Origin: Iodidimonas nitroreducens
GTDB taxonomy: Bacteria; Pseudomonadota; Alphaproteobacteria; Sphingomonadales; Rhodothalassiaceae
Assembly: GCA_000710935.1 (NCBI GenBank)
Contig: BAYV01000021.1
Coordinates: forward strand, 1-47,121
Length of the DNA: 47,121 nucleotides
Direction of reading: 5' to 3'
Both the position numbers and the translations under genes were made by a program. Each line of letters opens with the position of its first letter. The stretch's first letter is position 1. Of this stretch, positions 5,712-43,540 are shown piece by piece. The notes under the pieces were generated by a model. That model ran no database searches, had not been told where the DNA came from, and saw nothing but the letters and a program-made list of their open reading frames with translations.

Positions 5712-5774
5712 CAGGCTCCGCTTTGGCACCTTGAAGGCGCATGAAGGCTTCAGCCGCTCGGTGCGGCATCACAA

Positions 5775-5990
5775 AGCCCCCTCTGTCACGGAACCTGAGA
5801 GATTTCGCCAGACGCTTTTGGCCCGATGGCCGCAGCGCCTGCCTTATCCCCGTCGGTGAGGTGGACCCTGCCCACCTGCTTTCCAGAGTCGTCTGCCGCT
5901 AACGGTCCTTTAGCCTGAGAGTTTCCGGGGCGGTTGCTCCTTCGGCGGCTTTTCATACGGTTTCAACCGCATCAAAAGCTCTCTCCCGCA
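5775..5990 (-). promoter_or_regulatory. Tandem glycine riboswitch upstream of gcvT
   Basis: Read on the minus strand, the leader has two glycine aptamers in series. Aptamer 1 begins with GAGAG near 5985 and contains GCCGCCGAAGGAGCAA and ACTCTCAGGC. Aptamer 2 contains CACCGACGGGGATAAG, ATCTCTCAGG and the closing GACAGAGGGG near 5777. These are the conserved cores of the Rfam glycine riboswitch class. Between 5775 and the gcvT start lies a nested hairpin (GCCGC/GCGGC inside GGCTT/AAGCC) with no T-tract. This suggests control of translation rather than termination (inference). Glycine binding would be expected to turn the cleavage operon on. Confidence 0.93.
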
Positions 5991-6044
5991 AGCGGTCAGC
6001 GGCCTTTTAAAGCCGCCCGACATAATCAGTGCAGTCGCTTCTCC

Positions 6045-39242: not shown

Positions 39243-40073
39243 TCAATGGCCTTTGGTAAGGCCCGCAGCCTTGATCCCGGCTAAGGCCGGATCGATGCGT
39301 TGGCGGATGGCATCCAGCAAATGGGGGGTGGTGGCAATGATCGCAGATTGCCGGGCGCTGGGCTGATTATAATTGAGGGGCGCCCCTGTTTCATCGAGGC
39401 AAATGCCCCCGGCTTCGTGCAAAATCAGATCCGCCGCCGCCAGATCCCAATCGCATTTGGGGCGCAGGCTGATCATGGCTTCGGCCCGCCCTGCGCCAAT
39501 GGATGACAGCCGTAAAGCCAAAGCGGGCAAGGAGAGATAGCGCATCTGCGGCCATTGAAGGGGCCAGTGCCGAGCATCGTGCATCAGCTCTTTTTCGGCA
39601 AATATCTTGCAGCCCTCAAGGCTTTTGCGCTTGCTCACCTTCAGGCTTTTGCCATTCAGGCTGGCCCCGCAGCCTGTTTGGGCGAGATACATTTCATCAG
39701 AAGCAGGGCGATAAACGGCCCCCAGAACCGGTCGGCCATTTTGGACCAAAGCCACTGAAACTGCAAAGGATGGATCACCCCGCAAAAACGCGCGGGTGCC
39801 ATCGATGGGATCAACGACCCATGTCGCGGCTTTCGAGAGGCGTTCGGGATCATCCCTGCTTTCTTCCGATAGCCAGCCGGTTTCATGATCTATCTGCAGG
39901 CGTTCATGGAGCAGATCATTGACCGCGAGATCGGCTTCGCTCACCGGATCATTGGGATTTTTCTCCCAAGCTCTGACCGGAGTTCCGAAATAGCCAAGGG
40001 CCAGGGCTCCGGCGTCTCTGACGATCTGCTCCAATTCATCGAGTGTGTGGCTGAGAGGGGCGGGCTGGTTCAT
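39243..40073 (-). CDS. cysQ: 3'(2'),5'-bisphosphate nucleotidase / inositol monophosphatase family
   Basis: A 276-residue lithium-sensitive phosphatase-fold protein. Metal ligands are visible in WLSEESRDD, VVDPIDGTRAFLRG and CDWDLAAADLI, all intact. The best match is the CysQ group, which turns 3'-phosphoadenosine 5'-phosphate into AMP in sulfur assimilation. Inositol monophosphatase activity cannot be excluded. The start overlaps the pmbA stop by 4 nt (ATGA), so it is translated together with pmbA. Confidence 0.88.
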   Translation of the reverse strand: MNQPAPLSHTLDELEQIVRDAGALALGYFGTPVRAWEKNPNDPVSEADLAVNDLLHERLQIDHETGWLSEESRDDPERLSKAATWVVDPIDGTRAFLRGDPSFAVSVALVQNGRPVLGAVYRPASDEMYLAQTGCGASLNGKSLKVSKRKSLEGCKIFAEKELMHDARHWPLQWPQMRYLSLPALALRLSSIGAGRAEAMISLRPKCDWDLAAADLILHEAGGICLDETGAPLNYNQPSARQSAIIATTPHLLDAIRQRIDPALAGIKAAGLTKGH

Positions 40074-41440
40074 GTTCCGGCGACAGTCATCCTGTCGATC
40101 AAAAGGGTTGGGGCATTGGTGGAAAAGCGAAAGACCAGATCATTGGCCGGGGTGAGCGTGGCAAACATCTCCTTCAGATTGCCGGCAATGGTCATTTCGC
40201 TGACCGCATGGCTGATCTGGCCGTCTTCGATCAAAAAGCCAGCCGCCCCCCGGCTATAATCGCCGGTCACCGGGTTCACCCCCATGCCGATCAGTTCGGT
40301 CACATAAAAACCCCGGCTCACGGAGCCGATGAGATCGGCGGGCGTGGATGTCCCCGGCTCCATATATAAATTGCTTGTGGAGGGGCCGGGGGCCGATGAA
40401 ATCCCCCGCGTGGCGCTGGCGGTGGAGGCAAGATCAAGTTTGCGGGCGGTGGCGCAATCAAGCACCCAGCTTTGCAGGATGCCATCCTCGATCAGGGTGA
40501 GCGGTCTGGTTTCCAATCCTTCGCCATCAAAGGGCCGGGAGCCAAGGCCCCGTACCCGCCGGGGATCATCGAGGATGCGGATTCCCGGCGCAAACACCGA
40601 CTCGTGCATTTTTTTGAGCAAAAAGCTGGTGCCCCGGGCAATGGCTGCGCCATTCACCGCTTGGGCAAAATGGCCGAGCAGACTGTTTGAAACCCGGGGA
40701 TCGAAAATGACCGGCAGGCTGCCGGTGGGCAGGCGGCGCGCCCCCAGCCGGCGCACTGTGCGGTTGCCCGCTTCGCGCCCCACGCTTTCCGCCGTGGCCA
40801 GATCGGCAAAATGCCGGGCCGTGCTGAAATCATAATCGCGTTCCATGGCGGTGCCTTCGCCCGCCAGAACCGAGGCCGAAACGGAAAAGCTGGTGCCATC
40901 ATAGCCACCCAGAAAACCGCTGCTGGTGGCAAGATCAACCCGCATGCTGGATGCCCCGGCCCCCGCGCCCCCGCTATTGGTAACGCCGGGCACCGCGCGG
41001 GCGGCGTCTTCGGCTTCTTGCGCCAAAGCGGTGAGCGCCGCTTCGTCGATCTCATTGTGATCGTGAAGCTCAAGACCCTCGGCCGTTCTGACCCGGGCCA
41101 GCAAAGCCGGGTCCGCCAAGCCGATCCATGGGTCTTCGGGGGCCACCCGGGCCATGGCGATGGCGCGCTCCACCAAAGCCGCGCGGCCATCGGGATTGGG
41201 ATCAGAGGTGGAGACCGTGGCGCTGCGCTGGCCGATCATCACCCGCAGACCAAAAGCCGTGCTTTCGGATCGCTCGGCATCTTCCAGAATGCCCAGGCGA
41301 TAGCTGATCCCGATGCTGCGATCCGCTATGGCCAGGGCATCGGCGCTGTCGGCTCCGGCTTTTTTCGCGCGCTCGATCAGATCGGCAAGGATATCGGCGG
41401 CGCTGTCGCTTTGGGCTGGTCTGGTGTCGGATAGGGGCAT
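40070..41440 (-). CDS. pmbA: TldD/PmbA family metallopeptidase subunit
   Basis: A 456-residue PmbA (TldE) protein. PmbA and TldD form a protease that matures small peptides such as microcins and degrades unfolded protein. Features include SYRLGILEDAERSESTAFGLRV near residue 45, RRLPTGSLPVIFDPRVSNSLLGHF, and SNLYMEPGTSTPADLI. In the TldD-PmbA pair the metal-binding residues are on TldD, which is not in the window. The ATG at 41440 has GAGG upstream. An open frame continues to 41722, but it runs through a terminator-like hairpin and is not family-like. Confidence 0.92.
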   Translation of the reverse strand: MPLSDTRPAQSDSAADILADLIERAKKAGADSADALAIADRSIGISYRLGILEDAERSESTAFGLRVMIGQRSATVSTSDPNPDGRAALVERAIAMARVAPEDPWIGLADPALLARVRTAEGLELHDHNEIDEAALTALAQEAEDAARAVPGVTNSGGAGAGASSMRVDLATSSGFLGGYDGTSFSVSASVLAGEGTAMERDYDFSTARHFADLATAESVGREAGNRTVRRLGARRLPTGSLPVIFDPRVSNSLLGHFAQAVNGAAIARGTSFLLKKMHESVFAPGIRILDDPRRVRGLGSRPFDGEGLETRPLTLIEDGILQSWVLDCATARKLDLASTASATRGISSAPGPSTSNLYMEPGTSTPADLIGSVSRGFYVTELIGMGVNPVTGDYSRGAAGFLIEDGQISHAVSEMTIAGNLKEMFATLTPANDLVFRFSTNAPTLLIDRMTVAGT

Positions 41441-41554
41441 AGGGCCTCGCTGATTGTGCGTGAACATGCCTAGATATATGAGCCCATGGCCATCACAAGA
41501 CAAGACATGACTGGCCCCGGAGATGGGATCGCGATCATCCCAAAGGCGCGCATC

Positions 41555-41590
41555 AAAAGAAAGGCCCCCGCAGAGGGTGCTGCGGAGGCC
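41555..41590 (-). terminator. Intrinsic terminator ending the candidate small RNA
   Basis: On the minus strand GGCCTCCGCAG pairs with CTGCGGGGGCC (11 bp with one G-U pair, 6-nt loop), followed by TTTCTTTT. It is one of the strongest terminators in the window and lies 115 nt before the pmbA start. Confidence 0.8.
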
Positions 41591-41687
41591 TGACAGAAGA
41601 TCATGAAGCCCAAGGCAAGTGGGTCGGAACAGGGGGAACGTCGTGCGCTTCATGATCACAAGGCGCGAGTAAAAACCCGACCTTGCA
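41555..41687 (-). ncRNA. Candidate structured small RNA or attenuator leader of pmbA
   Basis: A transcript of about 130 nt is implied by the promoter at 41694-41722 and the terminator at 41555. Two long pairings are possible. GATCATGAAGC (41657-41647) pairs perfectly with GCTTCATGATC (41609-41599). GCAAGGTCGG (41686-41677) pairs with CCGACC plus TTGC (41627-41615, 3-nt bulge). The pairings interleave, so they form either a pseudoknot or two alternative folds. A C-rich stretch (CCCCC) sits in a loop. An open frame runs through it without a stop into pmbA but has no clear ribosome-binding site. I do not recognise the family. Confidence 0.5.
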
Positions 41688-41693
41688 CCAAAC

Positions 41694-41722
41694 ACTATAG
41701 TCAAAAAGTCATAATTTGTCAT
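41694..41722 (-). promoter_or_regulatory. Strong promoter of the candidate small RNA
   Basis: On the minus strand ATGACA (41722-41717) and TATAGT (41699-41694) are separated by exactly 17 nt. The predicted start is near 41687. Confidence 0.6.
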
Positions 41723-41941
41723 CCCAAACTATGATGATACGCTATCACTTCGTTGTGAAATATCATGTAATATTCGCGTAAAAATAAAAATGTCAGCCAG
41801 GTCGCCACTCGGGGGCTGTGCAAAGCCGGTTTTCTGTGGTTCTTTTTAAGATCAGGTTCGATTGTACCTATGATCGGACTTGGAAAGAAAAAAACATGGC
41901 CGACGAACAAGGCCGCATCGTGGGAATCTGGAGAGGGATAT

Positions 41942-43540
41942 ATGGCTGACAACAGCATCGGTTCCGCAGCCTCGGGAGGCAGGGGCGAATTATTCGGGCA
42001 TCCAAAAGGGTTATATGTTCTGTTCATGGCAGAGATGTGGGAGCGCTTTTCCTATTATGGGATGCGGGCGCTGCTGATTTTCTACCTGACCCAGCATTGG
42101 CTTTTTTCCGATGGCTCGGCCTCTTTGATTTATGGCACCTATACCTCGCTGGTTTATATCACGCCGGTGCTGGGCGGCTATCTGGCGGATAAATATCTGG
42201 GCCAGCGCAAAGCGGTTTTATTTGGCGCCATCATGCTCACCTGCGGCCATGGCCTGATGGCTTTTGAAGGTACGGGCGGGCAGGATGATCCCGCCCTCAA
42301 TATTTTCTGGCTGGCGCTTTCTTTCATCATCGTTGGTTCGGGCTTTTTGAAAGCCAATATTTCGGTGATCGTCGGTCAACTTTATTCCCTCACCGATGCG
42401 CGCCGCGATGGGGCCTATACGATCTTTTATATGGGGATCAATGTGGGGGCGGCCATCGGCACCATCGTTGCCGGATATCTGGGCCAAACCTATGGCTGGA
42501 AATATGGCTTTGGCGCTGCGGGCATCGGGATGCTGCTCGGTCTTCTGGTTTTTGTGTGGAAAACGTCTTTGCTGCTGGGCCGGGGTGAATCCCCCGATCC
42601 GGCGCGGCTGAAGCGCAAGATCGCCGGTTTGCTCAATCTGGAATGGACGCTTTATCTGCTGTCTTTGCTTTCGGTTGGCGGCATCTGGATGCTGGTTCAG
42701 ATGCAAGGGGCGGTGGGCAGCCTGCTTTTGGGCTCTGGCATCATTTTGCTGGGCTATGTGATTTATGAGGCGATGACCAAGCTCAGCCCCCATGAGCGCG
42801 ACCGGATTTTCGCTGTGGTCTTTCTGATCGCCTTGCAGCCGCTTTTCTGGGGTCTGTTCGAGCAGGCGGGGTCGTCGCTCAATCTGTTCACGGATCGTTA
42901 TGTGGATCGCATGGGCGTTCCGGCATCGGTGTTTCAATCGCTGAACCCGATTTATATCGTGTTGCTGGGGCCGGTTTTTGCGGGGCTATGGGTATTTTTG
43001 GCCAAGCGCGGGCTGGAACCGTCCACCCCGGCCAAATTCGGCCTTGGGATCGTGCAATTGGGGCTGGGGTTTCTGGTGCTGGTTGTGGGGGCCCATCTGG
43101 TGGGCGTCAATGCGGCGACCCCGGTCGTGTTTATTTTTCTGATTTATCTGCTGCACACCACGGGTGAGCTGTGCTTATCGCCGGTGGGGCTTTCGGCCAT
43201 GAACCGGCTGGCGCCCAAGCATATGGCCAGCCTGATCATGGGGGCGTGGTTTTTTGCCACCGCCGGGGGCAATTTCGTTGCCGGGTTGATCGCCAGCGCC
43301 ACGGGTAGTGGTGGCCATGCCGGGGGAACGGATATGGCCAAGGGATATGTTTTGGAAATCTACACCACCATCGGCTTTGTGGCTTTGGGTGTGGGGGTTC
43401 TGGTCATGATGATTGCGCCGCTGGTGAAACGGCTGATGCATCTCGATACCCTGAAAGACGATCAGGAACTGGCGGGCTATGAAGAGGTGGGCGAGGCGCA
43501 GACCGTGGGTATCCATCCAGAGCGGGAAACAAGATCATAA
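41942..43540 (+). CDS. POT/PTR-family proton-dependent peptide transporter
   Basis: A 532-residue major-facilitator protein of the proton-coupled oligopeptide transporter family. The ExxER motif is in EMWERFSYYGMRALL at the first helix. Further helices carry GGYLADKYLGQRKAV and INVGAAIGTIVAGYLG, and near the C-terminus HTTGELCLSPVGLSAMNRLAP. Twelve or more membrane segments are visible. The ATG at 41942 has GGAGAGG upstream. It imports di- or tripeptides. Two amidohydrolase genes follow on the same strand within 35 nt, suggesting uptake and breakdown of one substrate. Confidence 0.95.
   Translation: MADNSIGSAASGGRGELFGHPKGLYVLFMAEMWERFSYYGMRALLIFYLTQHWLFSDGSASLIYGTYTSLVYITPVLGGYLADKYLGQRKAVLFGAIMLTCGHGLMAFEGTGGQDDPALNIFWLALSFIIVGSGFLKANISVIVGQLYSLTDARRDGAYTIFYMGINVGAAIGTIVAGYLGQTYGWKYGFGAAGIGMLLGLLVFVWKTSLLLGRGESPDPARLKRKIAGLLNLEWTLYLLSLLSVGGIWMLVQMQGAVGSLLLGSGIILLGYVIYEAMTKLSPHERDRIFAVVFLIALQPLFWGLFEQAGSSLNLFTDRYVDRMGVPASVFQSLNPIYIVLLGPVFAGLWVFLAKRGLEPSTPAKFGLGIVQLGLGFLVLVVGAHLVGVNAATPVVFIFLIYLLHTTGELCLSPVGLSAMNRLAPKHMASLIMGAWFFATAGGNFVAGLIASATGSGGHAGGTDMAKGYVLEIYTTIGFVALGVGVLVMMIAPLVKRLMHLDTLKDDQELAGYEEVGEAQTVGIHPERETRS

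Follow-up and report, generated by a model that had tools for sequence, protein, structure and literature searches.

The DNA analysed here (the window) is a 47,121-nt stretch of Iodidimonas nitroreducens (GenBank assembly GCA_000710935.1, contig BAYV01000021.1). Between a pmbA/tldE-like gene and a divergent oligopeptide:H+ symporter (POT) gene, its minus strand carries a promoter, a leader, a long hairpin, and an intrinsic terminator, which delimit a predicted small RNA (Table 1). The first-pass annotation of this locus had described the promoter, an 11-bp perfect inverted repeat, and a strong terminator placed 115 nt before the pmbA start, and each of these descriptions stood. The promoter was recovered by a consensus scan, the terminator hairpin (41591-41562) has 12 pairs (9 GC) followed by TTTCTTTT, and the U tract ends ~115 nt before the pmbA start. 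The inverted repeat (41599-41609 / 41647-41657) was reached by 0 of 1,000 mononucleotide shuffles of the same 98 nt, and when the window was cut into 960 half-overlapping pieces of 98 nt, just one contained such a repeat. The promoter, the repeat, and the terminator are real and exceed chance.

Table 1. Features at the small RNA locus, in window coordinates
Feature	Position	Strand	Basis or remark
Oligopeptide:H+ symporter (POT) gene, divergent	41942..43540	+	TIGR00924, 351 bits, above cut-off
Inverted repeat TCAC-N6-GTGA (TCACAACGAAGTGA), candidate activator site	41745..41758	-	Similar place in 6/6 loci
Promoter ATGACA-17-TATAGT	41694..41722 (41722-41694)	-	Consensus scan; sigma-70-like
Predicted small RNA, ~134 nt	41553..41687	-	From sequence anatomy; start placed ~7 nt past the -10
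5' leader, non-conserved, with a predicted hairpin of its own	41659..41686	-	Fold; relatives' DNA matches begin only inside the main hairpin
Main stem, 5' arm GATCATGAAGC	41647..41657	-	Covarying stem
Invariant 36-nt block CACGACGTTCCCCCTGTTCCGACCCACTTGCCTTGG	41610..41645	-	Identical in 6/6 loci
Main stem, 3' arm GCTTCATGATC	41599..41609	-	Covarying stem
Intrinsic terminator of the small RNA	41555..41591	-	Hairpin 41591-41562 plus U tract
pmbA/tldE-like gene, downstream	40070..41440	-	PmbA model, E 3.3e-88, below curated cut-off

A 138-nt RNA from this locus folds at -58 kcal/mol (z = -4.5; as low in 0 of 200 shuffles). Its predicted architecture consists of a 5' hairpin, the main hairpin (41657-41647 with 41609-41599), and the terminator. 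The invariant block comprises the 31-nt loop, two closing C-G/A-U pairs, and flanks.

Seven genomes were compared, i.e., that of the window and six others (two of them in the same genus), whose family we take to be Iodidimonadaceae. The hairpin was found at the same place in six of the seven: the window's own genome, G001, G002 (Iodidimonas muriae JCM 17843), G004, G005, and G006. The remaining relative, G003, is without the RNA. The loci of the five relatives were found by BLAST (E about 5e-12 or better), and a covariance model (R1) built from the alignment of the six loci (A3) recovered its own training loci at E values of about 1e-19 to 1e-20, as expected. Searching the family genomes with this model gave one strong copy per genome carrying the RNA, together with a chance-level match in G003 (20.6 bits) and a second match in G001 (22.6 bits). 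A search of relatives for a retained helix and terminator, suggested in the first-pass annotation, showed that both are kept: in addition to the main stem, all five relatives have, after the main hairpin, a GC-rich, terminator-like hairpin whose tail is U-rich (by fold and by eye); with the window's own, such a hairpin is present in all six loci.

No credible copies were found beyond Iodidimonadaceae in 296 genomes of the order, 385 genomes of the class, and one exact 20-mer scan, the order and class searches having been run with Infernal's stricter filters, at the cost of weak matches. The scan for the exact loop 20-mer in a one-genome-per-species collection (84,980 species) returned four records (G005, G002, G001, and G006); G004 is absent from its list, as the window's own genome possibly is. 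There were no exact matches to an 18-mer in viral contigs. Outside the family, the covariance model yielded nine weak matches in the order and one in the class, all of which were rejected as homologues and judged to be chance or coding. By eye, five of these (L015, L017, L018, L019, and L023) lie antisense in one kind of protein gene, presumably VWA/CoxE-like, and L020-L022 and L024 look like chance matches. At L016:1480-1570, the model was matched through the stem of a long intergenic palindrome, a hairpin that has outer inverted repeats and looks REP-like by eye.

The two parts of the main hairpin are conserved in different ways. Across the six loci, 72 of 78 stem cells are paired (92.3%; 0 of 500 shuffles as high), and the six unpaired cells fall in the outermost pair in two sequences and in two inner pairs in both g3 genomes (G004 and G006). 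The covariation proposed as a check in the first-pass annotation was found in these homologues: the stem has a score of 0.667, compared with 0.350 in shuffles (0 of 500 as high) and at most 0.279 in slid registers, and 14 stem cells are changed on both sides, compared with 5.4 in shuffles (0 of 500 as high). Two of the five measures were weak, namely the number of pairs with changes on both sides (8 of 13, versus 4.7; 19 of 500 shuffles as high) and the number of further pair types (13 versus 12.7; 269 of 500 as high), the latter being weak or uninformative. The loop block is identical at 36 of 36 positions in all six loci, despite an identity to the window of only 0.46 (G002), 0.44 (G005), 0.31 (G001), and 0.43 (G006) at the four-fold sites of the adjacent transporter gene, a comparison that covers four of the five relatives and leaves out G004. 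Since the stem covaries and 36 nt are invariant next to such divergence, what is conserved, at the level of sequence, is the shape of the stem and the letters of the loop. A reading frame stays open across the block; because the block never varies, no frame shows a synonymous change, which disfavours a coding reason for its conservation, and a small protein was rejected on this reading.

We interpret the locus as a free-standing, trans-acting small RNA gene of Iodidimonadaceae that would pair via its C-rich loop with G-rich mRNA sites, and we give this interpretation a probability of about two in three. As would be expected of a trans-acting small RNA, the gene has, as judged from sequence, its own promoter and intrinsic terminator and no tie to one downstream gene. 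A free small RNA with a C-rich loop was one of the options raised in the first-pass annotation, and the recurrence of the hairpin, the promoter dyad, and the terminator in six genomes argues for it. In the mechanism that we propose, a putative activator would bind TCAC-N6-GTGA in a class I or LysR-like position and switch on the sigma-70-type promoter. An RNA of about 117 to 138 nt would then be made, ending at its own terminator, with a long stem, free in sequence, holding up a mostly unpaired C/U-rich loop of 31 nt. Through UUCCCCCUG, and perhaps also GACCCACUUGCC, this loop would pair with several mRNAs at G-rich stretches, commonly in or close to ribosome-binding sites, and would alter the translation or stability of these mRNAs. 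The pairing mechanism is taken from analogy with PmaR and GsrN, not from any target found here, and a literature search found no transcriptome papers on the genus. As judged by comparison of its loci, this appears to be a well-supported and apparently undescribed RNA gene family, ordinary in kind and with an invariant loop of unusual length. It thus offers a clean candidate RNA family in little-studied bacteria, defined by a covarying stem around an unchanging loop. The length of that loop poses a testable question, i.e., why 36 letters in a row should be constrained when most small RNAs manage with short seeds.

A contiguous invariant block of this length exceeds the need of one short seed, which counts against pairing and keeps a protein or multi-target platform in consideration. 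An alternative that we regard as unlikely, but worth weighing, is a protein-binding or sponge RNA, in which a protein or another RNA would recognize the whole 31-nt loop and the RNA would act by titration. Both the identity at 36 of 36 positions, longer than a usual seed, and the target searches, which gave no conserved mRNA, speak for this alternative. Genome-wide, loop complements of 15 nt with at most two mismatches gave 71 rows, compared with 131 for the reversed control. Those of 16 nt gave 18 rows, compared with 20, and no conserved target (G004, G005, and G006 were above their own controls by 1, 2, and 4, respectively); the exact matches to the loop complement were the RNA genes themselves. 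The transporter mRNA was rejected as a target, its 5' region being no better a partner than shuffles in the six loci (35 to 182 out of 200 mononucleotide shuffles reached as low a value). The pattern CAGGGGGA-N3-9-ATG gave 54 rows (14 in the window's genome and 9, 5, 4, 9, 4, and 9 in G001 to G006), many of whose ATGs do not open long frames, and the comparison pattern CAGGAGGA gave 6, 11, 1, 13, 15, 9, and 13 in the same order. The difference in CAGGGGGA sites between G003, without the RNA, and the rest (p = 0.07) is confounded by base composition, by two sites listed twice, and by the many ATGs that open no long frame. Among frames of at least 40 codons, the only recurring pair in the 54 rows is murB-like (recognized by eye), in the window's genome and G002; the murB sites of the other relatives compared, G003 not among them, are G-rich but different by eye.

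Single-sequence folds bear on the same choice. The minimum-energy fold agrees with the consensus in the window's RNA, G002, and G001, where the unpaired probability of UCCCCCU is 0.93, 0.91, and 0.93, respectively. In G005, G006, and G004, other folds are preferred. Of the possible consensus pairs, the minimum-energy fold contains 7 of 12, 7 of 11, and 0 of 11, respectively, and imposing the consensus stem raises the energy by 4.0, 3.2, and 3.5 kcal/mol; in the same order, loop positions are unpaired with a mean probability of 0.61, 0.56, and 0.47, and UCCCCCU with one of 0.68, 0.63, and 0.55. Because of these divergent folds, we weighed the pairing interpretation slightly lower and the protein-binding alternative slightly higher. 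Against the latter, no known protein-binding motif was recognized by eye, and the layout of the C/U-rich loop, largely unpaired in three of the six RNAs, suits pairing.

The promoter region suggests a regulatory setting for the RNA. In the window, the TCAC-N6-GTGA dyad is centred near -64, ~30 bp before the start of the -35. For the relatives, the -35/-10 pairs were identified by visual inspection of the aligned loci, that of G002 being uncertain, and TGTGA occurs exactly 16 bp after the dyad in five of the six loci, the window's being the exception. In G003 and 31 further relatives that lack the RNA, the 700 bp preceding the transporter gene yielded no such dyad (L042 was not judgeable); since the dyad is absent there, it probably belongs to the RNA and not to the transporter, and it is a probable, still putative, activator site. 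A search of the seven genomes for the tandem pattern with at most one mismatch gave 24 rows, compared with 3 for the reversed control, and none in G003. Ten rows were without mismatch, and five of these are promoters of the small RNA. The others are (i) L192 (G006) and L193 (G004), near position 1501, upstream of similar secreted subtilisin-like protease genes carrying Peptidase_S8 and Inhibitor_I9; (ii) L194 near 1069 (G005), where two TCAC-N6-GTGA dyads lie in tandem close to where a cytochrome c-domain gene starts, upstream of it if a downstream start is used; (iii) L198 (G006), inside a 259-codon frame; and (iv) a site in the window's genome flanked by an ftsW/rodA-type gene and a DUF2147 gene. 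There are hints that the tandem dyad marks a regulon of protein and peptide use, the protease sites coming from two genomes of one genus (G004 and G006). A more far-reaching and rather doubtful extension would make the RNA the hub of a family-specific, protein-feeding regulon, in which the tandem-dyad factor would drive both the RNA and the secreted subtilisin, the RNA would be retained next to the peptide-transporter gene, and its unusually long, invariant 31-nt loop would serve as a multi-target or protein-sequestering platform shaping the peptide response.

A cis-acting leader of pmbA, either a metabolite-sensing riboswitch or an attenuator, as entertained in the first-pass annotation, is very improbable. 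The terminator precedes pmbA closely on the same strand, and pmbA is also downstream in G002. However, four of the six loci, that of G005 among them, have no pmbA match within ~1.5 kb, on which ground the leader was rejected, and the constant neighbour, the transporter gene, is divergent to the RNA in all six loci and sits on the other strand (the homologue is more distant in G001 and G004). Downstream of the RNA, tRNA-Gln is encoded on the opposite strand in G004 and G006, and in G001 there is a convergent LysR gene whose best matches are OxyR models, at scores below their cut-offs. This oxyR-like gene (L075:48-1628) faces a peroxiredoxin-like gene. In G003, by sequence reading, an ispH-like gene faces the transporter gene.

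A riboswitch or attenuator would also call for a conserved alternative fold besides a fixed place before its gene, and no Rfam riboswitch was found at the locus. The alternative fold had been described as a 10-bp pairing interleaved with the main stem, obliging the RNA to form a pseudoknot or to switch. By sequence reading, two 5-bp blocks are present (GCAAG/CUUGC and GUCGG/CCGAC), but not a continuous 10-bp helix, as a 3-nt bulge splits them and an ungapped search for repeats gave no interleaved arm of at least 8. Leader-to-loop pairing was not clearly above that of shuffled leaders over the six loci: of 300 shuffles each, 41 (the window's), 235 (G002), 111 (G005), 46 (G001), 118 (G006), and 288 (G004) paired as well. 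With this pairing not conserved and the window's leader predicted to form its own hairpin, the pseudoknot and the two-state switch were rejected, and pmbA is probably not controlled in cis by the small RNA. The case shows that a comparison of relatives can tell a free small RNA from a leader belonging to the gene that follows. At 41800-41860 of the window and at the same place in relatives, near the transporter start, there is a second block that is partly conserved, CCACAG ... TTTGCCCAGCCC (minus strand); it is partly visible in G003 too and is perhaps the transporter's own promoter or leader.

It is hardly likely that the locus is a DNA-level element (a recombination, attachment, or repeat site) or a chance hairpin. 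A core that never varies, set between inverted arms that do, can resemble a mobile-element site, and tRNA-Gln is nearby in two genomes, but there is one strong copy per genome in a single neighbourhood, with the promoter dyad and the terminator-like hairpin on the same strand in six of six loci. Scarcely credible is an antisense regulator of one protein gene, by which the loop would be the reverse complement of GGNKWIGTGGTS codons in a conserved protein of other order members: five of the nine weak order matches fall antisense in such a gene, with 27 of 36 letters matching in G148 and 24 in G007, but the gene's own conservation makes these matches close to one event, and the idea failed in the four family genomes that could be compared, where the codons read TAGRSP or TAGTSP and 17 (G002), 18 (the window's), 18 (G001), and 22 (G003) of 36 letters match (G004 and G006 gave no motif and G005 no gene).

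The RNA had not been matched to a known family in the first-pass annotation, and as far as Rfam 15 goes this holds. No family scored above its gathering cut-off at the RNA in Infernal searches of the whole window, of 41400-41870 at a lax threshold, and of the five relatives' loci; the best sub-threshold score was 21.6 bits, compared with a cut-off of 50, over the terminator. Elsewhere in the window, at 5773-5998 (minus strand), tandem glycine riboswitch aptamers score 68.2 and 34.1 bits, above the gathering score. A literature search by sequence, genus, and design, mostly of open-access papers, found no description of the small RNA.

Several alphaproteobacterial small RNAs are nevertheless similar in design. 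AbcR / mmgR (suhB, RF00519) and other small RNAs with C-rich motifs combine anti-Shine-Dalgarno-like unpaired stretches with an intrinsic terminator, a general design in common with the window RNA, but the mmgR model scores only 14.4 bits here, compared with a gathering score of 41. EcfG-type promoters carry the motif GGAAC / GTT; by eye, no GGAAC lies upstream of the RNA on the same strand, its promoter being ATGACA-17-TATAGT. This bears on GsrN of Caulobacter, the family considered first. In the parts of its description used here, the exposed C-rich loop of GsrN pairs with G-rich mRNA leaders, an EcfG-type promoter served to search for its homologues, which, except in C. crescentus itself, are usually found near general-stress genes, and its BLASTn homologues were limited to Caulobacteraceae (PMC5869019). 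The window RNA likewise appears to be a free small RNA, with a C-rich loop that is predicted to be exposed, the 5' loop of GsrN being that RNA's most conserved part, but neither an EcfG-type promoter nor general-stress genes were seen at the window RNA, and membership failed on promoter and context. For neither GsrN nor PmaR do we claim homology; both appear similar in design and were compared by description.

PmaR of Agrobacterium tumefaciens is, according to the sections of its report consulted, a trans-encoded small RNA with a long stem and a single-stranded loop containing several C-rich stretches; it is restricted to close relatives, lies between two hypothetical reading frames, and has murB among its targets (PMC6234868). 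The window RNA shares with it, by this description, an alphaproteobacterial origin, a long stem with a C-rich single-stranded loop, and confinement to close relatives, and murB is one weak recurring candidate target here. The two RNAs differ in that the key CCCA of PmaR (positions 58-61 by that paper's numbering) is followed by G62 (PMC6234868), whereas CCCA is followed by C in the window RNA, and in that the latter constantly adjoins a transporter gene. The spoon shape of PmaR, a long stem with a C-rich loop, is matched by the consensus structure of the six loci, while the single folds of three relatives differ from it.
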